NCBI GenBank assembly: GCA_028821475.1
Contig: JAPPGB010000144.1
Coordinates: 1 to 51,670, forward strand
Length of the DNA: 51,670 nucleotides
Direction of reading: 5' to 3'
Source: Spirochaetaceae bacterium
GTDB lineage: Bacteria > Spirochaetota > Spirochaetia > SZUA-6 > Bin103
The number at the start of each line of letters is the position of its first letter. The stretch's first letter is position 1. Both the position numbers and the translations under genes were made by a program. The notes beneath the pieces were generated by a model, which made no database searches, was not told the origin of the DNA, and saw nothing but the letters and a program-made list of their open reading frames with translations. Of this stretch, positions 1-44,103 are shown one piece after another.

Positions 1-176
1 GCCGACTCTGCGCTCCTCTCAATCCTCCTCCCCACCGTTAAACCGAATGTTTACCAGCCGAAGCGGTTAGTTGTTTCTCGTATAAAGAGTTGCGGGGGGA
101 GGGGGGGGGCGGAGACACACCGGTCCATTCAACCGGTGGCGCCTTCAGGTGCTTACGATGATGTATCGTCCACATC

Positions 177-307
177 AGCCAGATCTCCAGCCGACAGCCA
201 CCATAATCCACGCGCGGTGAGCTGTCAAATGCCTTTCTCGGGCTGGTCAGGCTGGAGCAAGGCGGGCGGATCGGGGTGGCAACCATCTCCCGGCCCGGGT
301 AGGATGG
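177..307. repeat. Dispersed ~130 bp repeat, copy 1
   Basis: About 131 bases match 5923-6053 in the same orientation at roughly 90% by eye, with two single-base indels. Shared blocks include CAGCCAGATCTCCAGCCGAC, CTTTCTCGGGCTGGTCAGGC and CGGGTAGGATG. Similarity stops abruptly on both sides. The right end lies 7 bases before the start codon of the broken ATPase gene at 314, so the repeat may be the 5' region of a multicopy gene family rather than a mobile element; that reading is inference. Confidence 0.8.
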
Positions 308-313
308 GCGGTA

Positions 314-480
314 GTGAAGCGCAGACTGCCGCTCGGCATCCAGACCTTCCGCGAGATTCGCGAGCGGAACTGCTACTATGTGGCAAGTCCGGCTATCTGG
401 GCAAGCCGATCCACTTGGTGGGGGTGGAGTTCAGCCGCGCCACCCACAACGTGACCGCGTTCGCGGTGGCGTCGGGCTGA
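314..480 (+). pseudogene. Remnant of an AAA-ATPase-like/DUF1703 gene (frameshift plus internal deletion)
   Basis: Reading from GTG 314 gives KRRLPLGIQTFREIRERNCY, the typical N-terminus of the AAA-ATPase_like (DUF1703, PD-(D/E)XK-tailed) family, which normally continues YVDKTGYI. Here one base seems to be missing near 381. The next frame then gives KSGYL and jumps straight to GKPIHLVGVEFSRATHNV, which resembles the C-terminal nuclease end of the same family, ending at TGA 478-480. The P-loop core of several hundred residues is absent. I infer a one-base frameshift plus a large internal deletion. Family proteins are usually over 500 residues; about 55 codons survive here. The family is common and multicopy in spirochaetes and Bacteroidetes. 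Confidence 0.75.
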
Positions 481-551
481 CATCCACGCGACGCAGTGGG
501 TAGGCGGTGGAACTGTAGCCAAACGTCCAACGCGTCAGCGCCGATTATTCT

Positions 552-602
552 GCACGCCAGTGCGGAATTCTCTGGATTATTCCGCACTGGCGTGCGTAAT
601 AT
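552..602 (+). promoter_or_regulatory. Perfect 17-bp inverted repeat plus -10 box: operator/promoter of the ATPase gene
   Basis: Arms 552-568 and 579-595 are perfect reverse complements of 17 bases with a 10-base spacer. Immediately after lies TAATAT (597-602), a good -10 hexamer, and the GTG start is 7 bases after its last base. No T-run follows, so it is not a terminator. The right arm fills the -35/-10 spacer, so a bound protein should block the promoter. No convincing -35 box is visible. Confidence 0.6.
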
Positions 603-608
603 CAAAGC

Positions 609-1808
609 GTGGCGACGATTGCCAGAATATATCGCGCGATTCTGAGCGACGCGCTTGGTGAGCATAGGCAGATGGCGCTGGTGGCCGGCCCACGGCAGGT
701 CGGAAAGACCACTACCTGTCGCGAGCTCGCCGACGTCTACCTGGACTGGGACAACGAGGATCACCGCGAGCTGATTCTTGCTGGCCCCGCCGCCGTCGCC
801 GCCCGCGCAGGACTCGACAGACTCGCCGATCGACCGATCAGGATCGTGTTCGACGAACTGCACAAGTACAGGCGATGGAAGCAATTCCTCAAGGGCTTCT
901 TCGACACCTACGAGGATCGCGTCCGCATCATGGTGACAGGCTCGTCGCGGCTGGACGTCTACCGCAGGGGCGGCGACAGCCTGATGGGACGGTACTTCCT
1001 CTACCACATGCATCCGTTGAGCGTGGCGGAGTTGGCGGGGCGGCCGCTGTCGAACGCCACGCACGTCGCGCCGGTGCGGCTCCCCGAGGCGGAGTGGCAG
1101 GCGCTCCGTGTGTTTGGCGGCCATCCGGAGCCGTTCGTCAAGCGCTCGCCGCGATTCTCGCTTCGGTGGCGCGAGCTGCGTGCACAGCAACTCCTGCGCG
1201 AGGATATCCGCGACATGACCGGCGTTCAGGACATAGACCGGCTGGCGGTCCTGGCGCGCCTGTTGGCTACGCGCAGCAGCGATCAGCTCATCCATTCGAG
1301 CCTGGCAAAGCAGGTGCGCGTGAGTGAGAACACCGTGCGCAGTTGGGTGGCGACACTCAGCTCATTCCACTACGGATTCCTGGTCAGACCGTGGTTTCGA
1401 AACGTAGCCAAGGCGTTGCGCAAGGAGCCGAAATGGTTCTTGCGGGATTGGAGCGGCATTGCTGACGCCGGCAAGCGCGCCGAGACCTTCTGTGCCTGCC
1501 ATCTCCTGAAGGCGGTCGAGGGCTGGACCGATCTCGGACTAGGGTCGTTCCGGCTGCACTACCTGCGTGATACCCAGAAGCGCGAGGTCGACTTTCTCGT
1601 GGTCCGTGACGAAGAGCCCTGGTTGCTGGTGGAGGCCAAGCAGGGCGCTGCCGGGCTGTCACCCCACCTGGATCACTTCCAGAGGCAGACGCGTGCCGAG
1701 CACGCGTTCCAGGTGTCGATGGATGCCGACTACGTAAACACCGATTGCTTCTCGCGCACTGAGCCCGTCGTCGTGCCAGGCAGGACCTTCTTCGCGCAGT
1801 TGCTCTAG
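609..1808 (+). CDS. AAA+ ATPase with DUF4143 C-terminal domain
   Basis: A 399-residue protein of the AAA_14/DUF4143 family, cytoplasmic ATPases of poorly defined role. Walker A is GPRQVGKT (27-34), Walker B IVFDE (79-83), and the sensor-like TGSSRLD is at 110-116. Residues about 230-250 look like a winged-helix segment. The C-terminal part carries EVD (326-328) and LLVEAK (339-344), the pattern of a PD-(D/E)XK-type nuclease fold. Length is normal. The GTG start at 609 is chosen because the family N-terminus begins there and because it falls at the predicted transcription start, implying a leaderless mRNA. It stands alone and ends convergently with transporter locus 1. Being adjacent to a wrecked gene of another ATPase family suggests an accessory insertion site. 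Family call is firm, biological role unknown. Confidence 0.9.
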   Translation: MATIARIYRAILSDALGEHRQMALVAGPRQVGKTTTCRELADVYLDWDNEDHRELILAGPAAVAARAGLDRLADRPIRIVFDELHKYRRWKQFLKGFFDTYEDRVRIMVTGSSRLDVYRRGGDSLMGRYFLYHMHPLSVAELAGRPLSNATHVAPVRLPEAEWQALRVFGGHPEPFVKRSPRFSLRWRELRAQQLLREDIRDMTGVQDIDRLAVLARLLATRSSDQLIHSSLAKQVRVSENTVRSWVATLSSFHYGFLVRPWFRNVAKALRKEPKWFLRDWSGIADAGKRAETFCACHLLKAVEGWTDLGLGSFRLHYLRDTQKREVDFLVVRDEEPWLLVEAKQGAAGLSPHLDHFQRQTRAEHAFQVSMDADYVNTDCFSRTEPVVVPGRTFFAQLL

Positions 1809-1812
1809 TGTC

Positions 1813-1892
1813 CCGGAAGCCGCGCCTTGCGGCGCCGCTTCCGGCCCAGCCGGCCTACCTAGGAGCCTGCCGGAATCCGACAGGCTCCTAGG
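1813..1892. terminator. Two hairpins between convergent genes
   Basis: Hairpin A (1813-1844) has an 8-bp outer stem (CCGGAAGC/GCTTCCGG), one C-C mismatch, a 5-bp inner stem and a TTGC loop. Hairpin B (1858-1892) has perfect 12-base arms (CCTAGGAGCCTG/CAGGCTCCTAGG) with an 11-base loop, and overlaps the stop codon of the minus-strand permease. Neither has a long T-run. Position between converging genes suggests bidirectional termination. Confidence 0.6.
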
Positions 1893-2787
1893 TCGCGCCG
1901 CGCAACCGCGGGTCGAGCAGGTCGCGCAGGGCGTCGCCGAACATGTTGAGACTGTAAACGGTAATAGTCAGGCAAAGACCAGGCCAAAGAGCCAGCCATG
2001 GCCCCTGTTCCATGTATCTGCGCCCTTCCCTGCTCAGCAGCCCGCCCCACTCAGGAATCTCCAATGGCAGACCGAATCCGAGGAAGCTCAGAGCGGCCAC
2101 ACTCAGGATTACGCCCCCGATGCTGATGCTGAATGTGATGATTACGATAGGCATGATATTGGGCAGGACATGTCGGATCAGTGTTCTCCCGTTCGAGCTG
2201 CCAATCGCCGCCGCTGCCTGAAAATAGACATTCTCTTTGACACCAATAACCGAGCCTCTGACTGTTCTTGAGCCGACGATGCCTCCTGTTATCCCCAGGA
2301 CCACTATCATCTGTGGCATACCCCGCCCCACTATGGACATCACGGTCAACAACAGGAGCAGTCCCGGGAAAGCCATCCAGGCATCGACGAATCTCTGCAC
2401 CACCAAGTCCAGTTTACCACCAACGAATCCCGAAATGCCGCCTATCAGGACAGCCACCACAACATTGACAGCGGTCGCCGCCAGACCGACAAGTAACGAA
2501 ATGCGAGCTCCGTAGATAAGGCGGCTCAAAAGATCTCGCCCCAAGTGGTCGGTCCCCAGGAGATACTGGGCTGATGAGCCCTGCAGCCTGTCTACTACGT
2601 GTTGTTCCCAATATGGATAAGGAGCCAGGAAATCGGCAAAGATAGCCACAAGAATCAATAGCAATACGACAATCCCGCTGGCCATACCCATCGGCTTCTC
2701 GTGCCACAGCCTGATGAAGAAATCAGCCAACCCGGTACGTCTCTTTGGATCGCTTGCTGTTGATGGTATCCCCAGGTCGCTACTCAT
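1888..2787 (-). CDS. ABC transporter permease, DppC/OppC type (locus 1)
   Basis: Inner-membrane permease of 299 residues for a peptide/opine/nickel-family importer. A short cytoplasmic N-terminus is followed by a first membrane helix near residues 35-55, then the LLGTDHLGRD motif that marks OppC-type subunits. The BPD_transp_1 core contains SFLGFGLP and the ending LLDPRLRG. It starts 10 bases after the DppB-type stop, so the two are cotranscribed with the binding protein at 3895-5697. It closely resembles the permeases at 11194-12120 and 46976-47986. Base composition is lower in GC than in the other loci. No ATPase gene follows; the next gene is convergent. Confidence 0.93.
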   Translation of the reverse strand: MSSDLGIPSTASDPKRRTGLADFFIRLWHEKPMGMASGIVVLLLILVAIFADFLAPYPYWEQHVVDRLQGSSAQYLLGTDHLGRDLLSRLIYGARISLLVGLAATAVNVVVAVLIGGISGFVGGKLDLVVQRFVDAWMAFPGLLLLLTVMSIVGRGMPQMIVVLGITGGIVGSRTVRGSVIGVKENVYFQAAAAIGSSNGRTLIRHVLPNIMPIVIITFSISIGGVILSVAALSFLGFGLPLEIPEWGGLLSREGRRYMEQGPWLALWPGLCLTITVYSLNMFGDALRDLLDPRLRGAT

Positions 2788-2797
2788 ACTCGCTCTT

Positions 2798-3751
2798 CTA
2801 TTTATAACGGACCCTGGGATCCAAAACAGGATACATCAGGTCGATCAATAGATTGATCCCCATAACCATGGTGGCGAAAAACAGGTTGACTCCGGAGACC
2901 ACCGGGTAGTCTCTGTCTTCGAGTGCCGCCACCATGAGGCGACCCAGCCCCGGCAGGTTAAATATGTTCTCCATGATAACGGAGCCGCCTACCAGGATAG
3001 GCATCTGCAGGCCGATCAGGGTAACTACCGGGATGAGGGCATTCTTGACGGCGTGTCTGATAATAACGACCCTCTCCTTCAGCCCCTTGGACCAGGCCGT
3101 CCTGATATAGTCCTGCCTGAGCACCTCCAGCATCATGGTGCGGGTCATCCGCATGGTGGCTGCAGAGAGGTAGGTGCCAAGGATCAAGCTGGGAATGATG
3201 AGCACCGCGAGATTCCCCAGCGGGTCTTCCGTGACAGGAACCCACTGCATCGGTGGCGACCAGCCCCACCAGATTGCCGGGTAGAGCATGACCATCAGGG
3301 CCAGCCAGAAGTTAGGCGTTGCCAGGCCGATGATGGCAACCGAGCGCCCCATGTAATCGGCGGCCGTATCCTGACGAATCGCGGAGTAGATGCCGACGGG
3401 CAGGGCTATCACCAGCCCGATCGCGATCGCCAGGACACCAAGCTGAATGGTTACCGGCAATCTATCCAGTATCTTTTCCTCCACCGAAAAAGCGCCGCCA
3501 AACAGTGATTTGCCAAGGGTGCCGTGCAGGAAAATACCTCCCATCCAGCGTCCATACTGCACGTAGAAAGGCACGTCCAATCCCAGTTCACGCTCCAGAG
3601 CTTCACGGTCTACCTCGCCGCTCCCGTACTCCATCGTCATCAGGTCTATTGCATCGCCGGGGATGAAGCGGACCGAGAGAAAGACCAGTACGGTCAATAT
3701 AAGCAAGCCAGGGACCATCAACAATAAACGCCTGATGATATAGGCTCTCAT
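2798..3751 (-). CDS. ABC transporter permease, DppB/OppB type (locus 1)
   Basis: A 317-residue integral membrane subunit with the N-terminus MRAYIIRRLLLMVPGLLILT typical of DppB proteins. The long periplasmic loop holds ERELGLDVPFYVQYGRW, and the cytoplasmic coupling region is YIRTAWSKGLKERVV followed by VIMENIFNLPGLGRL. It pairs with the DppC-type subunit 10 bases downstream. A gap of 143 bases with strong hairpins separates it from the binding-protein gene upstream. Paralogs lie at 12113-13072 and 46024-46983. Substrate cannot be told from the permease. Confidence 0.93.
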   Translation of the reverse strand: MRAYIIRRLLLMVPGLLILTVLVFLSVRFIPGDAIDLMTMEYGSGEVDREALERELGLDVPFYVQYGRWMGGIFLHGTLGKSLFGGAFSVEEKILDRLPVTIQLGVLAIAIGLVIALPVGIYSAIRQDTAADYMGRSVAIIGLATPNFWLALMVMLYPAIWWGWSPPMQWVPVTEDPLGNLAVLIIPSLILGTYLSAATMRMTRTMMLEVLRQDYIRTAWSKGLKERVVIIRHAVKNALIPVVTLIGLQMPILVGGSVIMENIFNLPGLGRLMVAALEDRDYPVVSGVNLFFATMVMGINLLIDLMYPVLDPRVRYK

Positions 3752-3825
3752 GTGATACTTCCCCCTGTAACCGGGAGCCCTTCTACTGAAAGCGTGGCAA
3801 TGTCGTCGCCCTCTCCAGGAGCATC

Positions 3826-3897
3826 GGGAGCCGGCAGGTTTGCACCTCCCCGGCTCCCTCTTTCCCTAAGGCCAGTAGCAAGGGGCTGAAGCCCCTA
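3826..3897 (-). other. Intercistronic stem-loops between binding protein and permease (locus 1)
   Basis: On the minus strand the first hairpin starts in the binding-protein stop codon (AGGGGC, loop TTCA, GCCCCT; 3882-3897). It is followed by a larger one with 9-bp arms at 3826-3834 and 3851-3859 and an inner 4-bp stem. There is no T-run. Structures here commonly protect the abundant binding-protein mRNA or cause partial termination before the permease genes. Confidence 0.65.
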
Positions 3898-5697
3898 TTG
3901 ACCCATTGCGCTCTTCAGCTCACTATCAATCCAGAGGCGGGCCAACATCTGATAAGCTTGACCGTAACCCAGCTCGGTTTCACCGCTATAACCTATGACC
4001 CACGGCTGATTCCAGTTAAACCGTGGGGACTCGGGCCCCCATATATACCAGTGCTTCTCAGTCGCGTACATATCCAGCTCTCTAAACAGCCTCTGGTACT
4101 CGTCGAGGTCAGTAGTAGCTCGCATGGTCTCAAGCTTGGCGTCAAAAGTCGGGTCCGAGAATTGGCCGGCGGGGTTCCACACGTTGCCGGACCAGCGACC
4201 CACAAGGTGCTCTGCGAGATAATGATGGCTCATCTCCCCGCTGCGCATATCTTCATGCATTGAGGAGCTCGCTATTTTGGCTAACTGAGCAGGCTCCATT
4301 GCCTCGATCTCTACAGCAACGCCAATCTCACGCCAGTATGCAGAGGCCAATTCATGATAGCCTGTGGGGTTGTGCCCCCAGGCAAGGCTGGTAGTCTTGA
4401 ATCTCATGCCGTCGGCACCACGAGGAAATCCGGCCTCATCGAGTAACGCTTCTGCCGCTGCCGGATCATAGGTATAGCGTTCCTTGATCTCTTCAGGCCA
4501 CTCCTCATATGGAACGTAATACCCTTTGAGAGAATCCCCCACTACCCCGCGAGGTTCCCAGTTTGCATGACCCTTAAAGAAGGTATTGGCAATTGTCTCG
4601 AGGTCCAGCGCCTTCTGCAACGCTATACGCACCCGAATGTCGCTAAAGAGTGGGTTATTCAGGTTCATACTAAAAGCATGATTAGACCGGGTCCAAGTCT
4701 TGTGCAGCTCGATTTCGGGATTGCTCCGCTGGAGGCTCTCTACCTGGTCGATAGAGTTGATGGAAGAGGCCATAGTGCCCGCCGAAATTCCCAGATCAAC
4801 CTTACCCGAGCGGATTGCTGCCAGACGTGTTGTTTCGTCTGGCATAACGAGGGCCTTTAACTCGTCAGCATAGGGCAGGCGGTTCTGCGGGTATTTTTCG
4901 TCGTAGCCCCAGTAGTCAGGATTCTTGGTGAAGTTATAGGAACTGGCCTCGACCCATTCAGTCAGCATCCAGGGCCCGGTGCCGACCAGGTTCCTCCAAT
5001 CCTTGGCGTCGCCGTATTGCTCGATTACCTCGGGGGGATATATGTAATTGGTCCACCAGTCCGTGATAAGCGGGAGCGGATTGATGTGTGGCCGCTTCAG
5101 CTTGAAAACGACGGTATAGTCGTCTGTGGCTGTTATCGATTCGAATTGCACAGACTTCATATCATGTAATGATGGGCTAGGTTCGGTGAAGCCGCTGCCC
5201 ATACCCAATATGCGGTGATAGTTGTATTCGATATCCTTGGCAGTTAGCTCCCTCCCGTTCATCGGCGGCTTATCATGCCAGTGAACGCCTTTACGGATAT
5301 TGAACACATAAGTTGTGTCGTCAGGCTGTTCCCAGCTTTCCGCCAGCTGCCCTATCAAGTATTCTGGGGGTACGTTTGGACCTCGCCAGCCCCATTCGTC
5401 CCTATCTACTGCCCAGTCTCCGATAACTAGCTTCTCTAAAACGCCAGAGACGAACGAACTGGCGTTGCCACTGATGAACCAGGCGTCGGCAATGTCAAAC
5501 TCCTTGGTAGTGGGGAAGGTCAATGTCCCGCCGTACTCTGGCGCGACCACTACCTCCCCTGTGCTGGGGTCCGTCACATACTTCTTGTCGGCGGCGGCTG
5601 CCGGTGCCTCTTCCGTGCCAGCGGCCCACAGGCCGGTTGCGGTCAGGGCGAATCCAATCAGGATCGCCACGCTCTCTATTCTTAGCAAATTACTCAT
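3895..5697 (-). CDS. Extracellular solute-binding protein, family 5 (locus 1)
   Basis: A 600-residue periplasmic binding protein of the SBP_bac_5 (DppA/OppA) family. The N-terminus has a hydrophobic signal segment ending near TATGLWAAGTEE, with no lipobox cysteine. A short acidic linker with a DPSTGEVV motif follows, then YGGTLTFP, where the mature fold begins. Family landmarks include TYVFNIRKGVHWHDKPPMNG, TGPWMLTEW and RIALQKALD. AGGAG followed by ATAAACC precedes the ATG, supporting this start. It is the first gene of an operon with two permeases and resembles the proteins at 13227-15068 and 44104-45909, but its upstream leader is different. The ligand is probably a peptide or similar small compound, not determinable here. 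Confidence 0.93.
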   Translation of the reverse strand: MSNLLRIESVAILIGFALTATGLWAAGTEEAPAAAADKKYVTDPSTGEVVVAPEYGGTLTFPTTKEFDIADAWFISGNASSFVSGVLEKLVIGDWAVDRDEWGWRGPNVPPEYLIGQLAESWEQPDDTTYVFNIRKGVHWHDKPPMNGRELTAKDIEYNYHRILGMGSGFTEPSPSLHDMKSVQFESITATDDYTVVFKLKRPHINPLPLITDWWTNYIYPPEVIEQYGDAKDWRNLVGTGPWMLTEWVEASSYNFTKNPDYWGYDEKYPQNRLPYADELKALVMPDETTRLAAIRSGKVDLGISAGTMASSINSIDQVESLQRSNPEIELHKTWTRSNHAFSMNLNNPLFSDIRVRIALQKALDLETIANTFFKGHANWEPRGVVGDSLKGYYVPYEEWPEEIKERYTYDPAAAEALLDEAGFPRGADGMRFKTTSLAWGHNPTGYHELASAYWREIGVAVEIEAMEPAQLAKIASSSMHEDMRSGEMSHHYLAEHLVGRWSGNVWNPAGQFSDPTFDAKLETMRATTDLDEYQRLFRELDMYATEKHWYIWGPESPRFNWNQPWVIGYSGETELGYGQAYQMLARLWIDSELKSAMGQ

Positions 5698-5922
5698 GGT
5701 TTATCTCCTTGGAGAAAAGCCAGTTGAGAGCACTGATTCCACTGCCGGCCCCTCGCAACGCTCGCGACGGTCGCAAGCGAGCGCACTCTCGTCGAACGAG
5801 GGCGACACCCTGTAGCGGCCGCAGCCGCTCGGTCTCTCGTGAGTCTCTTATCGCGTGCCTCCTTTGGCGCGCGCCGCGCCGAAAAGCAGCCATGCGCGCC
5901 GCCACGCGTGGTGGCGGTGCTG
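5698..5922. other. Intergenic region upstream of transporter locus 1
   Basis: Non-coding as far as I can see. It should hold the promoter of locus 1 on the minus strand, but no convincing -35/-10 pair was found. The stretch 5755-5810 is rich in small dyads built from CGCTCGC, GCGAGCG and CTCGT/ACGAG. The dispersed repeat begins at 5923. Confidence 0.5.
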
Positions 5923-6053
5923 CAGCCAGATCTCCAGCCGACAGCGACCATACTCCCTGCGCGGCGAGCTGTCAAACTCTCTTTCTCGGGCTGGTCAGGC
6001 TGGAGCACGGCGGGCGGATCGGGTGGCAGCCATCACCCGGCGCGGGTAGGATG
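5923..6053. repeat. Dispersed ~130 bp repeat, copy 2
   Basis: Same orientation and about 90% the same as 177-307. Unlike copy 1, no ATPase-like coding sequence follows: after CGGGTAGGATG the sequence is unrelated. It therefore looks like an orphan 5' region or an independent repeat unit. Confidence 0.8.
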
Positions 6054-6138
6054 CGCCACATACCTGTCTGGAAATCAAGTCGCGAACAGCCCCTTTGGAT
6101 CATGCCGACCGACAATGTACGCCCGCGTCGGACCTTCC

Positions 6139-6498
6139 TCAACGCCGGATTCGAACGCGCTGCTCGTCCACAATCCACAGCGATTCAGCGAGCGAGAGCG
6201 TCTTCAGCAAGGAAATCAGGCGTCGCGTCAGCGCGACGATCGTGTCGATGTCTTGATTCCGAGGCCGGAGGACCACGATGCCGTGGTACTCTGGCGGGGG
6301 GTACGCCCGGATGTCTCCTAGCCCACGATCAAGTGTCACAATCGCGCGTCCTTCGGCTTGACAGACAGCCGCCAGTCTTGGATCCCCAGCGCCGCCGAGA
6401 CCTTCCTCAATGGCAGTGGTGACGTTGTGCCCGGCCGCCCGCAAGACTTCAGCCGTGGTCCCCGGGAGATTCTCATCGATCTTGATCTTGACAGCCAC
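6139..6498 (-). CDS. DUF5615 PIN-like toxin candidate
   Basis: A 119-residue protein of the DUF5615 family, PIN-like putative ribonucleases. Visible landmarks are KIDENLP near the N-terminus (a conserved acidic residue), AAGHNV, GDPRLAAVC and AIVTLDRGLGDIR with the paired aspartates expected for metal binding. Length is typical. It lies 18 bases downstream of a DUF433 gene on the same strand, the standard arrangement for this toxin-antitoxin-like pair. Toxicity is inferred from family knowledge. The ATG at 6498 is the only reasonable start. Confidence 0.88.
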   Translation of the reverse strand: MAVKIKIDENLPGTTAEVLRAAGHNVTTAIEEGLGGAGDPRLAAVCQAEGRAIVTLDRGLGDIRAYPPPEYHGIVVLRPRNQDIDTIVALTRRLISLLKTLSLAESLWIVDEQRVRIRR

Positions 6499-6516
6499 GT
6501 TTGCCGGTATGCGCGC

Positions 6517-6744
6517 TCATGCGTGCAGAGCAAGGGTCTGCTCGCGGGCCAACTCCGCCGCGTATGCCAGCGCCGCTCTGATCGCGTCTGGCGTGAGCGG
6601 CGGATACTCCGCAAGAAGGCGCTCCTCTGGCACCCGAGCAGCCAGATTGTCCAGAACGACCGAGACGGGGACCCGCGTACCTGCGATACACGCAACGCCG
6701 TGCATCACATTCGGGTCAACTGAAATGTAGTCGCGCCAGTTCAT
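6517..6744 (-). CDS. DUF433 antitoxin-like protein
   Basis: A 75-residue DUF433 protein. It shows the family opening WRDYISVDPNVMHGVACIAG, followed by TRVPVSVVLDNLA, the YPPLTPDAIRAAL helix-turn-helix stretch and an alanine-rich C-terminal helix. DUF433 proteins usually precede and neutralise DUF5615 proteins and probably bind DNA. GGGAGG sits about 8 bases before the ATG. It is the first gene of a two-gene operon. Confidence 0.9.
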   Translation of the reverse strand: MNWRDYISVDPNVMHGVACIAGTRVPVSVVLDNLAARVPEERLLAEYPPLTPDAIRAALAYAAELAREQTLALHA

Positions 6745-6874
6745 CGTTTCGACCTCCCAATCTGCCGGGGCATAACGTCATAGGTTCTCTGCGGGTTAAC
6801 CGACGGCATGAGCTGCACGGCCTGTTCGTAAGTCGCTATGGTAGCCGGGAGAGTGCAAGGGGAGCAACGCGACC

Positions 6875-6903
6875 TTGACCGCCAATGGGCCGGCCCGTAT
6901 AGT
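6875..6903 (+). promoter_or_regulatory. Sigma70-like promoter giving a leaderless transcript
   Basis: TTGACC (6875-6880), a 17-base spacer and TATAGT (6898-6903). The seventh base after the -10 box is the A of the ATG at 6910, and no Shine-Dalgarno sequence can fit, so the mRNA is predicted to be leaderless. Confidence 0.75.
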
Positions 6904-6909
6904 CCGCCG

Positions 6910-7977
6910 ATGCATCGATTCACGGCCGGTCATCTGCACTCGATCACGCGGCGGGCTTTCCGGGCCGCGGGCGCCACGGACGCCATCGCGGACGAGGTGG
7001 CAGGGATCCTGGTCGGCGCCAACCTCGCCGGACACGACTCCCACGGTGTGCTGCGCATTCCGGAGTACCTGCGGCATGCGGAACGCGGCAACCTGAAAAT
7101 GGATGCCGAACCGACGGTCCTGGCGGAGACCGCCACCACCCTGCTGATCGACGGCAACGACGGCTTCGGCCACTACACGGCGCGCCGTGCCATGGCGCTG
7201 GCGATCGACAAGGCGCGCGGCGCGGCGGTGTGCTGCGCGAGCCTGGTGCGGACCGGACACATCGGCCGGTTGGGCGAGTACGCGGAGCAGGCGGCGCGGG
7301 CCGGCTGCATCGGCATCGTCACGGTCGGCTGGGGCCAGACCGGCAGCGGCAGCACCACGCCGTACGGCGGCGCGCGCGGCGCATTCGGCACCAATCCGAT
7401 CGCGTTCGGCGTACCGACCGGGGACGATGTTCCGTTCATCGTCGACTATGCCACCAGCATGGTGGCCGAAGGCAAGCTGCGCGTCGCCCGCAGCAAGGGA
7501 GAGGACCTCCCGGAGGGCTACATCGTCGACCGCAACGGTCTCCCGAGCGTCAAGCCGGAGGACTTCTACGAGGGCGGCTTCCTGCTGCCGTTCGGCAATC
7601 ACAAGGGCTACGCGCTGGCGATGCTGACCTGTCTGCTCGGCGGGTTGTCGGGCCGCTTCGACGTCGAGCAGGGCACCATGGGCGGGGCATACCTGCAGGT
7701 GATCGACGTAGCCGCGCTCACGCCCCTGGAGACCTATCAGCAGGGGGTTCGGGCGTTCCTCGACGGCATCAGGCAGACACCGCCGGCGCCCGGCTTCGAC
7801 GCGGTGCTGGTGCCGGGCGACTTCGAGCATCGCTCCCGCGCATGGCGTCTTGCGCACGGGGTCGAGGTGCCGGAGGCGATCTTCCGGCAGATCGAAGCGT
7901 GCGCCGCGAAGCTCGGCGTGGCGCTGGGAGAGGACGCGGTCGGGGCGTCCGACCTGGAACGCTACGCGACCGAGTAG
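6910..7977 (+). CDS. Ldh/MDH-family NAD(P)-dependent dehydrogenase
   Basis: A 355-residue cytoplasmic oxidoreductase of the Ldh_2 fold (malate/L-lactate/ureidoglycolate/2-hydroxyacid dehydrogenases). Diagnostic stretches are AGHDSHGVLRIPEY with the conserved histidines, DGNDGFGH, GAFGTNPIAFGVP, DYATSMVAEGKLRVA and GNHKGYALAMLTCLLGG. Length is normal. An in-frame ATG at 6838 exists, but the family N-terminus (MHRFTAGHL) and the promoter at 6875-6903 favour 6910. It is followed after 68 bases by the gamma-glutamyltranspeptidase-like gene on the same strand, so both may be cotranscribed. The exact 2-hydroxyacid substrate is unknown. Confidence 0.92.
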   Translation: MHRFTAGHLHSITRRAFRAAGATDAIADEVAGILVGANLAGHDSHGVLRIPEYLRHAERGNLKMDAEPTVLAETATTLLIDGNDGFGHYTARRAMALAIDKARGAAVCCASLVRTGHIGRLGEYAEQAARAGCIGIVTVGWGQTGSGSTTPYGGARGAFGTNPIAFGVPTGDDVPFIVDYATSMVAEGKLRVARSKGEDLPEGYIVDRNGLPSVKPEDFYEGGFLLPFGNHKGYALAMLTCLLGGLSGRFDVEQGTMGGAYLQVIDVAALTPLETYQQGVRAFLDGIRQTPPAPGFDAVLVPGDFEHRSRAWRLAHGVEVPEAIFRQIEACAAKLGVALGEDAVGASDLERYATE

Positions 7978-15068: not shown

Positions 15069-15170
15069 ACGTAACTCCGTATGTTGGTTTGTTGAGAGTG
15101 TTGCGGAGCGCCGTGCCGCTCTCTGGCCACGCTCGCACCCGCAACGCAGGCAGCCAGTCAGAGTCAGATT
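15069..15170 (-). promoter_or_regulatory. Conserved 5' leader of the locus 2 binding-protein gene
   Basis: On the minus strand the last bases before the ATG read AACATACGGAGTTACGT, identical to those before the GTG of the locus 3 gene, and GGAG serves as ribosome-binding site. Further upstream TGCGTTGCGGG(T/C)GCGAG is also shared. The unrelated spacer between these blocks suggests selection on the blocks or a fairly recent duplication. Confidence 0.6.
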
Positions 15171-15565
15171 GGTTACGGGCGCGGCGTGTGACTCACCGGG
15201 TTCACCCGGGCTCACGCCGCGCCCGCGTGCGGTTCCTTGAGTATCATCCTGCACGTCGTGTGCGCCGGCATGAACCTGCGTCCCAACGCCACGCTGGATC
15301 GCAGTCGGCCAAGGCGACGGCGTGCGCGGGAGCGCGTACCGGAACACTCAGCCGGAGCGGATAATGGCCTTTGGTATAAGAGTTGCCGAGGGGGGATTGT
15401 ACCGGCGGCGTCACAACCGTCGGGTTACCGGGCACAGGGTCGTGATGGCGCATGATCCGCATCCGTTCAATCCTTGACCTGCTCACCGTCGCACGCTCGC
15501 CCCGAGGTGTCAAGCGCGCGCGGACTCGACAAGTCTTATGTTGGCTTGACCAACTATATTTATTG
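15171..15565. other. Intergenic region without recognisable gene
   Basis: No convincing coding sequence. It includes a direct CGGGTTCACCCGGG-like dyad near 15198-15212, a TATAAGAGTTGCCGAGGGGGG stretch near 15375 that resembles the sequence near 80-105, and a small GTTGG-CTTGA-CCAAC inverted repeat at about 15540-15554 just ahead of the toxin-antitoxin pair, a possible operator. Confidence 0.4.
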
Positions 15566-17017: not shown

Positions 17018-18124
17018 CTACCATAGCCGGGCGCCGGCCCCCTCGCCTACCACGGCGACCGCGTCCTCCGGCAGCCAGGCGCGGCGACCGTCGGCCAGCA
17101 CGACTTGGTACCAGTCGTTGCGCCGCTCCACCACCACCAGTTCGGTACCCGCATGCAGGGCGCCGTCGAAGCTGGCTTCGTAGGCAGCTCCGTCGCCGCG
17201 CCTTGCCACCACCTCAGGCGCCACGACGACCGCCACGTCTTCCTGCGAATCGACCAGGTCCGCCGCTACCGAGCCACCCATGGCTACCGCAACCACCGCC
17301 GCCACCGCCACCACCGTCCCGAGCACCGGGCGGCGCACCCGCTGCCAGCCGCGCGTCGCGTGCAGCCGTTCACGCAATCGCCGAGAGCGCGCGCTGACGG
17401 TGGCCAGGGCGGGCAGCAACGCGAGCAGCCACAGCAGGTTCCACGCACCCAGCAGCAGGCCCGCGCGGACCCGTAGCGGCACCGTGAAGTGCCAGAAGAA
17501 CAGCACGCGCACCACGCCGCCGGCGGCGGTGGGTTCGATCCGGTCGCGGCGCAGGGAGCGGGCGTGGCGCAGGCTCTGCTGCAGGTTGGGGTCGGCCGGG
17601 ATCAGTTGCTGCGCCTCTCGGTAGTACAGGATGGCGCGGCCGACGTCTCCGAGCCGGAAGTAGGTGTTGCCGATGTTGTACAGCAGGTAGCCGTTGCCGC
17701 CCCCGAGCGCGGCGGCGGCTGCCTCGTAGCGCAGCAGCGCGGCGCGAAACTGCTCTGCCGCCTCCGCCGAGCGACGCTCGCCTGCCAGCCGGTTGCCATC
17801 GGCAAAGTGACGCTCCGCTTCGGCGAGCAGCACAGCCGGCGCGGCGGCCGGGGTCGGTGTTGCCGCCGCCTGCGCCACCGCCGGCAAGGCGGCTCCCAAG
17901 CCGCACAGCGTGGCAAGCAGAGCTACCCGCCAACGGAAGCCGGCAAGCGCATCGCGGGTGCCGTGCAACAGCGCAATTCCGGTGCCACGCCGCCGGCCCC
18001 GGAAGGCGCGGCCGCGGCTCCGAAGCGTATCGCGGGTGCCGTGCAACAGCGCAATTCTGGTGCCACGCCGCCGGCCCGGGAAGGCGCGGCCGCGGCTCCG
18101 GGACTGGTCACGCACGTGGCTCAT
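17018..18124 (-). CDS. batE: BatE-like protein: TPR repeats, membrane helices and SH3 domain
   Basis: A 368-residue protein. An arginine-rich N-terminus made of two 26-residue repeats is followed by a signal-like helix ([20 protein letters not shown]) and TPR motifs including [20 protein letters not shown]. Two membrane helices follow (around [18 protein letters not shown] and [20 protein letters not shown]), then a bacterial SH3 domain near the C-terminus ([20 protein letters not shown]). This is the BatE layout of the Bat operon, a membrane complex tied to stress or aerotolerance. The ATG overlaps the BatD stop (ATGA). The doubled N-terminus is odd: no start codon exists between it and the signal helix, so it must be translated or the start is mis-set. 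Confidence 0.8.
17945..18100. repeat. Two tandem copies of a 78-bp unit inside the batE-like gene
   Basis: Units 17945-18022 and 18023-18100 differ at only a few positions. The period of 78 is divisible by three, so the repeat stays in frame, encoding two copies of SRGRAF(P/R)GRRRGT(R/G)IALLHGTRD. It precedes the signal-like helix of the BatE-like protein. Confidence 0.85.
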
Positions 18125-34337: not shown

Positions 34338-35768
34338 TTACGAGTCTTCGGCGTACGTTTGCCAGCGTCGGCGGAGGCGGGCGCCCCATTGGTCTACCAC
34401 GTCGCGCGGCCGGCCGGGTTCGAGCGGACGCCTCTCCAGGCGGCGCTCTTCGGTGGCAAGTGACGCGCGCAACGCGGCCAGGGTCGCCGCCTGCGCCGGG
34501 TCGGAGGCCAGGTTGCGGGTCTCGCCGGGATCGGCCTGCAGGTCGAAGAGCTGCTCCAGGCCGCGCTCGGCGGTGTCCGGCCCCGGCGGCACGTAGTCCT
34601 CCACCTGCTTCGGGCGGTACTCGGTGACGTACTTGTGGGTGGCGGTGACCAGGGCGCGGCCCCAGTAGTTGGACTCGATGTACACCCCGTCCCGCCAGGG
34701 CACCTCGCGGCCCTCGACCAGGGGCCGCAGGCTGCGCCCGAGGCAGCGCGGCGGAGCGGGAATGCCGGCGTAATCGCATATCGTTGCCGGCAGGTCGACG
34801 CCGGACACCAGGTGGTCGAGCCGGCTGCCCTTCTCCACCGGCAGCCGGTCGCCGAGGCTGGCCACCACCAGCGGCACACGCACGCTCTCCTCGTACAGGG
34901 TGAACTTCTGGAACATCTGGTGCTGACCGGCCGCCTCACCGTGGTCGACGGTGAAGATCACGATGGTGTCGTCGCGGAACCGGCTGGCGGCCAGGGCATC
35001 GAGCACCAGGCCGATCTCGGCGTCCACCTTCTCCACGAAGCGGTACAGGTTCCAGGCGAACGAGCGCCAGTCCAGGGCGGAGAAGCGGCGCGTCTTGCGC
35101 AGGATCTTCCAGTGGATGAGGCACTCGTCGTCACGCCGGATCACGCGGTGCTGCAATGGCTCGCGCGGGTCGTAGTCGAAGTTGTCCGGCAGCGGCGGCA
35201 GCTCATCCTCGCGCAGGATGCCCTGGGCGACCGCGTCGGGAATCTCCTTCTCCTCGTAGTTGTGGCCGTACTCGCACACGTCGTGCGGATTGACGAACGC
35301 AAGTTGCAGGTAGAATGGCGCCTCGCCGTCGTGGGTGGTCAGGAACTGCAGCGCGGCGTGGGTGATGGCGGGGTCGTAGAATTCGCCGGTGCTGGCGCCG
35401 ATACGGCGCGCACCGTAGTACAAGGTGTCGAAGCTGCGGGTGACGTCGCGGCCGTCGACGTGCCACTTGCCGCCGTGGAAGGCGCCGTAGCCGCCGGCCC
35501 GCAGGAGCTGGCCCAGGTCGGGGATGTCGTCGTGCAGATGGCCGCCGTTGAACGGCACGCCGGCTTCCGAGGTGTAGCGCCCGGTGGCCCAGCTCGTGCG
35601 CGCCGGGGCGCACACCGGGTCGGTGCAGTAGGAGCGCATGAACGACGTCCCGGAGGCCACCAGGCGGTCCATGTTGGGCGTGTTCAGCCAGCGGTTGCCG
35701 TAGGCGGAAACAGCGTCCCAGGTCTGCTGGTCGGTGTTGATGAACACGATGTTCGGATGTGTGCTCAT
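34338..35768 (-). CDS. Sulfatase (type I, formylglycine-dependent), paralog 1
   Basis: A 476-residue alkaline-phosphatase-superfamily sulfatase. The first metal site is NTDQQT (D13), and the formylglycine signature C53-A-P-A-R57 lies in DPVCAPARTSWATGR. Metal ligands DHGE are in IVIFTVDHGEAAGQH, and HGGKWHVDG supplies a catalytic lysine and histidine. No signal peptide is seen, so it is cytoplasmic or exported by other means. ATG 35768 overlaps the stop of the unknown gene upstream (ATGA). Very close to the sulfatase at 37754-39190. Likely substrates are sulfated carbohydrates; choline-sulfatase-like or phosphonate hydrolases are alternatives. Confidence 0.9.
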   Translation of the reverse strand: MSTHPNIVFINTDQQTWDAVSAYGNRWLNTPNMDRLVASGTSFMRSYCTDPVCAPARTSWATGRYTSEAGVPFNGGHLHDDIPDLGQLLRAGGYGAFHGGKWHVDGRDVTRSFDTLYYGARRIGASTGEFYDPAITHAALQFLTTHDGEAPFYLQLAFVNPHDVCEYGHNYEEKEIPDAVAQGILREDELPPLPDNFDYDPREPLQHRVIRRDDECLIHWKILRKTRRFSALDWRSFAWNLYRFVEKVDAEIGLVLDALAASRFRDDTIVIFTVDHGEAAGQHQMFQKFTLYEESVRVPLVVASLGDRLPVEKGSRLDHLVSGVDLPATICDYAGIPAPPRCLGRSLRPLVEGREVPWRDGVYIESNYWGRALVTATHKYVTEYRPKQVEDYVPPGPDTAERGLEQLFDLQADPGETRNLASDPAQAATLAALRASLATEERRLERRPLEPGRPRDVVDQWGARLRRRWQTYAEDS

Positions 35769-37753: not shown

Positions 37754-39190
37754 TCACCGCTGCTGAGCCTGCCAGCGTGCGCGGAGGCGGGAGCCCCACT
37801 GGTCGACGATCGCGCGCGGCCCGCCGGGGACGAGCGGACGGCGCTCCAGGCGGCGCTCCTCCGAGACAATTGCAGCGCGCAGCGCGGCCAGGGTCGCCGA
37901 GAGCGCTGAATCACCGGACAGGTTGCGAGTCTCGCCGGGATCAGCCCGGAGGTCGAACAGTTGCTCCAGGCCGCGCTCGGCGCTGTCCGGCCCCGGCGGC
38001 ACGTAGTCCTCCACCGCCTTCGGACGGTACTCGGTGATGTACTTGTGGGTGCCGGTGACCAGGGCGCGGCCCCAGTAGTTCGACTCGATGTAGACGGCGT
38101 CGCGCCAGGGCACCTCGCGCCCCTCGACCAGGGGCCGCACGCTGCGCCCGAGACAGCCCGGGGGAGCGGGCATGCCGGCGTAGTCGCACACCGTGGCCGG
38201 AAGGTCGACGCCGGACACGAGGTGGTCGAGCTGCCTACCCTTCTCTACCGGCAGCCGGTCGCCGAGAGTGGCCACCACCAGCGGCGTGCGCACGCTCTCC
38301 TCGTACAGGGTGAACTTCTGAAACATCTGGTGCTGGCCAGCCGCCTCGCCGTGATCGGAGGTGAAGATCACGATGGTATCGTCGCGGAACCTGCTGGCGG
38401 CCAGGGCGTCGAGCACCAGGCCGATCTCGGCGTCCACCTTCTCGACCAGGCGGTACAGGGACCACGCCAGGTAGCGCCATTGCAGCGCGGAGAACTTGCG
38501 CGCGTGGCGCAGGATGTTCCAGTGGATCAGGCAGTCGTCGTCGCGCCGCGCCACCCGGTGCTGCAGCGGCTCGCGCCGATCGTAATGAAAGTTCGCCGGC
38601 AGCGGCGGCAGCTCCGCCTCTCCCAGGATGCCCTGGGCGACCGGATCGGGCTTCTTCTTCTCGGAGTGGTAGCGCCAGTGCTCGCACACGTCATGTGGAT
38701 TGACGAGCCCCAGTTGCAGGTAGAAGGGCCGCGAGCCGTCGTAGCTGGTGAGAAACTGCAGCGCGGCGTGGGTAGTGGCGGAGTCGTAGAACTCGCCATT
38801 GCCGGCGAGAATCCGGCGCGCCCCGAAGTAGAGCGTGTCGAAGCTGCCGGTGACGTCGCGGCCTTCGACGTGCCACTTGCCCGCGTGGTATGCGCCGAAT
38901 CCGCCGGCGCGCAGGAGTTGTCCCAGGTCGGGGATGTCGGCATGCAGGAGGCCGCCGTTGAACGGCACGCCGGCTTCCGAGGTGTAACGCCCGGTCGCCC
39001 AACTCGTACGCGCCGGAGCACACACCGGATCGGTACAGTAGGAGCGCATGAACGAGGTGCCGGACGCCACCAGCCGGTCGATGTGCGGGGTGCTCAGCCA
39101 GCGGTTGCCGTACGCGGAAACCGCGTCCCAGGTCTGCTGGTCGGTGCTGATGAACAGGATGTTGGGGCGTTCGGTCACTGATTCGGTCAC
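37754..39190 (-). CDS. Sulfatase (type I, formylglycine-dependent), paralog 2
   Basis: A 478-residue sulfatase, clearly a close paralog of the one at 34338-35768 over its whole length. Formylglycine signature C57-A-P-A-R61 and the metal motif SDHGE are intact. GTG 39190 overlaps the stop of the DppC-type permease of locus 4 (GTGA); GTG 39178 is an alternative. Translational coupling to a transporter operon implies that the imported compound, or a product of it, carries a sulfate ester. Requires a formylglycine-generating enzyme encoded elsewhere. Confidence 0.9.
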   Translation of the reverse strand: MTESVTERPNILFISTDQQTWDAVSAYGNRWLSTPHIDRLVASGTSFMRSYCTDPVCAPARTSWATGRYTSEAGVPFNGGLLHADIPDLGQLLRAGGFGAYHAGKWHVEGRDVTGSFDTLYFGARRILAGNGEFYDSATTHAALQFLTSYDGSRPFYLQLGLVNPHDVCEHWRYHSEKKKPDPVAQGILGEAELPPLPANFHYDRREPLQHRVARRDDDCLIHWNILRHARKFSALQWRYLAWSLYRLVEKVDAEIGLVLDALAASRFRDDTIVIFTSDHGEAAGQHQMFQKFTLYEESVRTPLVVATLGDRLPVEKGRQLDHLVSGVDLPATVCDYAGMPAPPGCLGRSVRPLVEGREVPWRDAVYIESNYWGRALVTGTHKYITEYRPKAVEDYVPPGPDSAERGLEQLFDLRADPGETRNLSGDSALSATLAALRAAIVSEERRLERRPLVPGGPRAIVDQWGSRLRARWQAQQR

Positions 39191-43628: not shown

Positions 43629-44074
43629 GACCGCCTTGGGATCGCGACCGATGCGCATGATGCATGATGCATGACGACACGTACCCGCGCAGCCACGGGT
43701 CAGCGCCGCAAAACCGACGCCCGAGGCGCCGCCCCACATCCGGTAGATCATTAACCGTAACCGCTCGGGCTGATCGCGCCGCGGGCGCTTTCGCCTTCAG
43801 CACCGGGGTAGCGGGCGGCTGCGCCGGGCGCCGGCTCAGTCCACGTTCGTTCACTCGTTCACTGACGCCCGCCACGGTCCTGGATCCCCCTTCCACTGGT
43901 CAATCACGTCATCGCATCGACAACAACCCTGCCGGTATTCCCGGCGCACAGGAGGTGCAAGCGAGACGCAAAGAACCGCACGCGCACGGGGCGTGAGCCC
44001 CGATTGCCGTCTCTGTCTGGCCGCGTGCGTTGCGGGCGCGAGAGTAGGCAGGGCCCGGCAATTCGTTACTCGAT
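43629..44074. other. Long untranslated region upstream of locus 3
   Basis: No convincing gene on either strand. It would be the 5' leader of locus 3 if the promoter at 43600-43628 is used. The part around 44000-44050 shares TGCGTTGCGGG(C/T)GCGAG with the upstream region of the locus 2 binding-protein gene. Confidence 0.45.
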
Positions 44075-44103
44075 ACACTCAAACCAAACATACGGAGTTA
44101 CGT
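44075..44103 (+). promoter_or_regulatory. Conserved leader and ribosome-binding site of the locus 3 binding-protein gene
   Basis: CAAACCAAACATACGGAG followed by TTACGT precedes the GTG at 44104. The last 16 bases are identical to those before the ATG of the locus 2 gene, which fixes both start codons. TACACT just upstream could be a -10 box, but no -35 fits. Confidence 0.6.

Follow-up and report, generated by a model that had tools for sequence, protein, structure and literature searches.

What is the dispersed sequence that stands before a broken ATPase gene at the left end of this DNA and occurs again farther along? We studied it in the window, i.e., the whole stretch of 51,670 nucleotides, which is contig C144 of its own genome (G000). 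When copy 1 was used as a query against the own assembly (5.73 Mb in 183 contigs), copy 2 was recovered with E = 3.5×10−44; because this value holds against the whole genome, the similarity is not due to chance. The direct repeat of about 90% identity that an earlier note had placed at 177-307 and 5923-6053 is thus real, with slightly different limits (Table 1). Each copy has 134 bp, and the two are 90% identical with two compensating 1-nt gaps. The flanks of the two copies are unrelated, and the edges of the ~133-bp unit are sharp. These are the only full copies in the own assembly, which is fragmented and may therefore lack additional copies located at the ends of contigs. Among 98 genomes (the own one included), the whole unit is absent from the relatives searched, and the sole relative with a partial match, to window 261-315, is G002, a sister species in the same genus. 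Nothing similar to window 1-330 was found in phage and plasmid collections. Pattern scans gave three single matches, in unrelated taxa, in a genome contig collection and zero matches in a viral contig collection. The earlier note would have given up its ideas if there were only two copies genome-wide and no link to ATPase genes. This is half the case: the count is indeed two, yet one ATPase gene is linked to the repeat.

The repeat is a composite of two halves, the left of the type of transporter-operon promoters and the right of the type of an ATPase-gene 5' flank. We consider it probable that it is an old, duplicated divergent control region, with the promoter of a peptide transporter on one side and that of an ATPase/DUF1703 gene on the other. 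What looked like a puzzling repeat would then become an ordinary divergent promoter region.

Table 1. Positions of the features discussed in the text (window coordinates)
Feature	Position	Strand	Remarks
Leader left of copy 1	50..176	-	Hairpin, C-tract and element AAACAACTAACCGCTTCGGCTGG; common to leaders of other SBP operons
Repeat copy 1	176..309		Divergent segment: transporter-type predicted promoter leftwards, ATPase-type predicted promoter rightwards
Predicted promoter in copy 1	200..228	-	TTGACA (228-223) N17 TATGGT (205-200); promoter scan and family alignment; points left off the contig
TAGGAT, predicted -10 of ATPase gene	300..305	+	8 nt before GTG 314, leaderless-type
Remnant of AAA-ATPase_like/PDDEXK_9 (DUF1703) gene	314..480	+	About 28 first and 26 last codons; internal deletion, 1-nt frameshift
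AAA_14/DUF4143 ATPase gene	609..1808	+	Intact neighbour, different family from the remnant
OppC-type permease	1888..2787	-	
OppB-type permease	2798..3751	-	
SBP_bac_5 solute-binding protein (SBP)	3895..5697	-	Opens the operon that lies behind copy 2
Repeat copy 2	5923..6056		Same segment, upstream of SBP operon; right side without ATPase gene
Predicted promoter in copy 2	5947..5975	-	TTGACA N17 TATGGT; promoter scan and family alignment; points at SBP gene
TAGGAT in copy 2	6047..6052	+	No gene after it
Structured leader RNA R1	15090..15247	-	Before SBP gene of transporter locus 2; covariance model, E = 3.8×10−50
Weaker copy of R1	43961..44084	+	Before SBP gene of transporter locus 3; covariance model, E = 2.2×10−20

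The identity of the right half follows from the sister species. G002 has an intact homologue of the remnant, a gene of 527 aa with PF09820 followed by PF08011 (the DUF1703 architecture). Its DNA matches the window in two parts: 261-398 (91% identity), which takes in the upstream flank, the start and some 28 codons, and 372-480 (85% identity), which takes in the last codons. Compared with the G002 gene, the remnant lacks about 1.4 kb internally and has lost one base in the 5' part. The first 23 residues of the remnant match positions 1-18 of PF09820 weakly (E = 0.003, below the curated cut-off), and the PF08011 profile has no hit in 314-480. The remnant is thus homologous to both ends of a DUF1703-type gene but has neither domain at full strength, and, unlike the members of that family, it is what a deletion has left. 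Judged by its sequence, it is a pseudogene of the AAA-ATPase_like/PDDEXK_9 family, not a member. The claim that copy 1 lies before a broken AAA-ATPase/DUF1703 gene is therefore borne out, the copy ending a few bases before the GTG. The intact AAA_14/DUF4143 neighbour is preceded by a perfect 17-bp inverted repeat (552-568 and 579-595); the 21-base pattern of its right arm, with up to 3 mismatches allowed, occurs nowhere else in the own genome.

The own genome bears about 27 AAA-ATPase_like (PF09820)/DUF1703 genes, plus fragments. DUF1703 has been analysed as a family (PMC1913061), and a similar expansion, to at least 25 paralogues, is known from Cardinium cCpun (PMC6387759). An in-frame start is preceded by TANNNT at a distance of 4-9 nt in 14 of the 27 genes; at displaced gaps the count is 0-6. 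The other ATPase genes of the own genome share with the repeat only this short core near the start codon, and the -35 of the predicted ATPase promoter is weak. Because the -10 box is so near the start codon, the mRNA would be nearly leaderless. In this respect the 14 genes, and the remnant, resemble, at the level of sequence, known leaderless genes with a -10 box beside the start codon (PMC3160421; PMC12340547; PMC3898074). The suggestion that a spreading gene family carries the repeat as its conserved 5' region survives in part: window 261-313 is a DUF1703-type 5' flank and the family is large, but the left half is of the transporter-promoter type and the copies do not consistently precede ATPase genes. 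A systematic link between the repeat and AAA-ATPase_like genes was dropped, since the others carry only the short core.

The left half is to be read leftwards. In the own genome it has a family of partial matches (C34:51, C30:57273, C30:55390, C30:50627 and, at a contig end, C64:15921), and their minus-strand alignment shows TTGACA, a 17-base spacer, a -10-like hexamer and then a leader in common. Two of them, C30:50627 and C30:55390, sit directly before SBP genes. The promoter block TTTGACAGCTC is found on the minus strand in both window copies and at C30:55486, C30:57370 and C34:149, as well as at C30:50722 with 3 mismatches. A promoter scan of window 1-7000 gave 4 hits versus 2.9 in shuffled sequences (sd 1.7), i.e., no excess, so the case for a promoter here rests on the conservation of hexamers and spacing. 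These results point to a promoter-like site of a small family before peptide-type ABC transporter operons (SBP_bac_5/OppBC).

It is also evident that copy 2 is not an orphan. The earlier note had stated that no gene lies behind it, and this has to be corrected: an intact minus-strand SBP_bac_5/OppB/OppC operon (5697 to 1888) begins about 225 bp beyond copy 2, and the TTGACA-N17-TATGGT site, read on the minus strand from 5975 to 5947, points at the SBP start. As in the promoter and leader regions of peptide/oligopeptide ABC transporters, a sigma-70-like site and a 5' leader precede an SBP and two permease genes. What differs is that the TTTGACAGCTC-type block is restricted to about six places, in a genome where the locus 1 SBP protein has 77 matches at E = 1×10−60 or better in the own genome (a few of them fragments). 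On the other side of copy 2, just upstream, two genes adjoin, DUF5615 and DUF433 (6139-6498 and 6517-6744, minus strand), in a layout reminiscent of a toxin-antitoxin pair.

Given this operon, it is unlikely that the repeat is only the 5' region of AAA-ATPase/DUF1703 genes, with a dead promoter in copy 2 and transporters nearby by coincidence. Such a reading accounts for the conservation of 261-313 upstream of the intact ATPase of the sister species and for the -10 core that recurs before ATPase genes, but the left part is common to upstreams of SBP operons and not to those of other ATPase genes, and copy 2 keeps its promoter hexamers and spacing in front of an intact SBP operon.

Copy 1 points off the contig, and the leader behind it is of a kind shared with other SBP operons. 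It has a conserved hairpin whose arms lie at 118-124 and 132-138, a C-tract seen as the G-tract 94-109 on the plus strand, and the element AAACAACTAACCGCTTCGGCTGG in the 76-50 region of the minus strand, which elsewhere begins 307-623 bp upstream of SBP genes. The AAACAACTAACCGCT element is present in 13 of the 71 SBP upstreams fetched from the own genome and in 1 of 15 from G002, and shuffled and reverse-complement controls have none; in the window, searched on the minus strand, it has a single place. We infer from these that another SBP operon, driven by copy 1, would lie just beyond window position 1. As the contig ends there, the position of copy 1 before an SBP gene is taken from its leader, and its operon lies beyond the contig end, a difference from known transporter promoter regions. 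We considered whether a leader peptide (MWTMHYQKHL...) is encoded behind the promoter and rejected this, because the frame is lost in C30:57273 and the substitutions, inspected by eye, are not coding-like.

Both copies span the junction of the halves, which suggests that the composite formed once, as an ancestral divergent intergenic control region, and was duplicated afterwards. Its leftward promoter, sigma-70-like, would have served a peptide-type ABC transporter operon (SBP, OppB and OppC), and its rightward promoter the ATPase/DUF1703 gene. Copy 2 would still drive transporter locus 1, having lost its ATPase gene and having a different leader, whereas copy 1 would drive the operon past the left contig end, with the SBP-type leader kept and the ATPase decayed. 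The ATPase genes of the own genome are not significantly enriched beside SBP genes (5 of the 27 within 2 kb versus 2.7 expected, P = 0.12), so the divergent pairing appears to be a one-off, and adjacency as a general rule was dropped. Furthermore, the ATPase gene of G002 adjoins a different permease gene, and an ancestral ATPase/SBP pairing is therefore not found in the sister species.

The transporter side belongs to a large set of paralogues. At the same threshold (E = 1×10−60 or better), the locus 1 SBP protein has 26 matches in G002, and the window itself holds three SBP_bac_5-type transporter loci. A comparison of the 71 SBP upstreams of the own genome reveals mosaic sharing, with a conserved stretch of about 160 nt whose end, in many operons, lies a short way ahead of the SBP start. 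Perhaps, as a tentative reading, the upstreams of the many peptide-transporter operons of this genus are built of exchangeable modules (promoter blocks, a C-tract element and a structured leader RNA), of which the repeat would be one promoter block and the leader RNA may control expression of the SBP gene. Shared promoters, mosaic upstreams and a recurrent structured leader RNA would then be a possible wiring of the whole transporter set.

The same mosaicism bears on how the two copies arose. It is rather improbable that the copies reflect repeated exchange and not one duplication, the repeat being a promoter cassette that recombination or gene conversion shifts between paralogous transporter operons. 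Segments of one SBP upstream do find their best matches in different paralogues, and copies 1 and 2 share the promoter while their leaders are unrelated just beyond GGCTG; but for two copies this pattern could also result from a simple duplication with indels afterwards. Least probable of all, and very doubtful, is a non-autonomous (MITE-like) mobile element inserted twice, as the earlier note had also proposed: a discrete, sharply bounded unit of 133 bp in two contexts, its copies 90% identical between unrelated flanks, would suit one, but there are two full copies instead of multiple dispersed ones, its ends (CAGCCAGATCTCC and GGGTAGGATGGGC) show no terminal inverted repeats and no duplicated bases are common to the two flanks of either copy (both by eye), the unit is absent from the relatives searched and from the phage and plasmid collections, and each half has homologues of its own, linked to a different gene family.

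The structured leader RNA, R1, lies before the SBP genes of transporter loci 2 and 3, and its model has no match in the locus 1 leader. The alignment has 23 sequences, and the covariance model was built without the pseudoknot. The structure comprises seven helices, one crossing as a pseudoknot, with standard pairs in 92.7% of cells; slid versions of it pair at 25-53%. Seven pairs are changed on both sides, compared with 1.8 in shuffles (1 of 500 reaches seven); the covariation is limited, since the paralogues differ little from one another and the same sequences served to draw the structure. Across 61 genomes, under stricter filters, 34 copies are in the own genome, 4 in G002 and 0 elsewhere, and 32 of the 34 own-genome copies lie upstream of a same-strand SBP match, mostly 24-62 nt away. 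Rfam has no match in 11 leader-bearing loci, and in window 1-7000 it gives one hit only, at chance level. R1 thus resembles the known structured cis-regulatory leader RNAs of Rfam in being conserved, structured and close to the gene that follows; unlike them, it has no Rfam match and was seen only in the own species and one sister species among the 61 genomes. It appears to be a previously undescribed leader RNA without an Rfam entry, and the simplest guess is that it affects how the SBP gene is translated or how stable its mRNA is.

Poly-G/C tracts were also considered as phase-variation switches and rejected, because most of the long tracts lie at the ends of contigs or within G000 sequence of low quality. 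C-runs of at least 7 in gene sense occur in 16 of the 71 SBP upstreams (e.g., L163, L167, L169, L183 and L211), and G-runs of this length in none; the C-runs are no more frequent than in shuffles (15.4 genes), and a modest excess is seen only from a length of 9 upwards (7 genes versus 1.9). Many G000 contig ends (e.g., C34:1-50, C8 and C21) have GC-rich sequence of low quality and G or C runs of 30-50 nt, probably an assembly artefact. Other repeats in the window are two head-to-tail 78-bp copies of 96% identity at 17945-18100 and a direct repeat of at least 300 bp and 85% identity (34360-34659 and 37770-38069).
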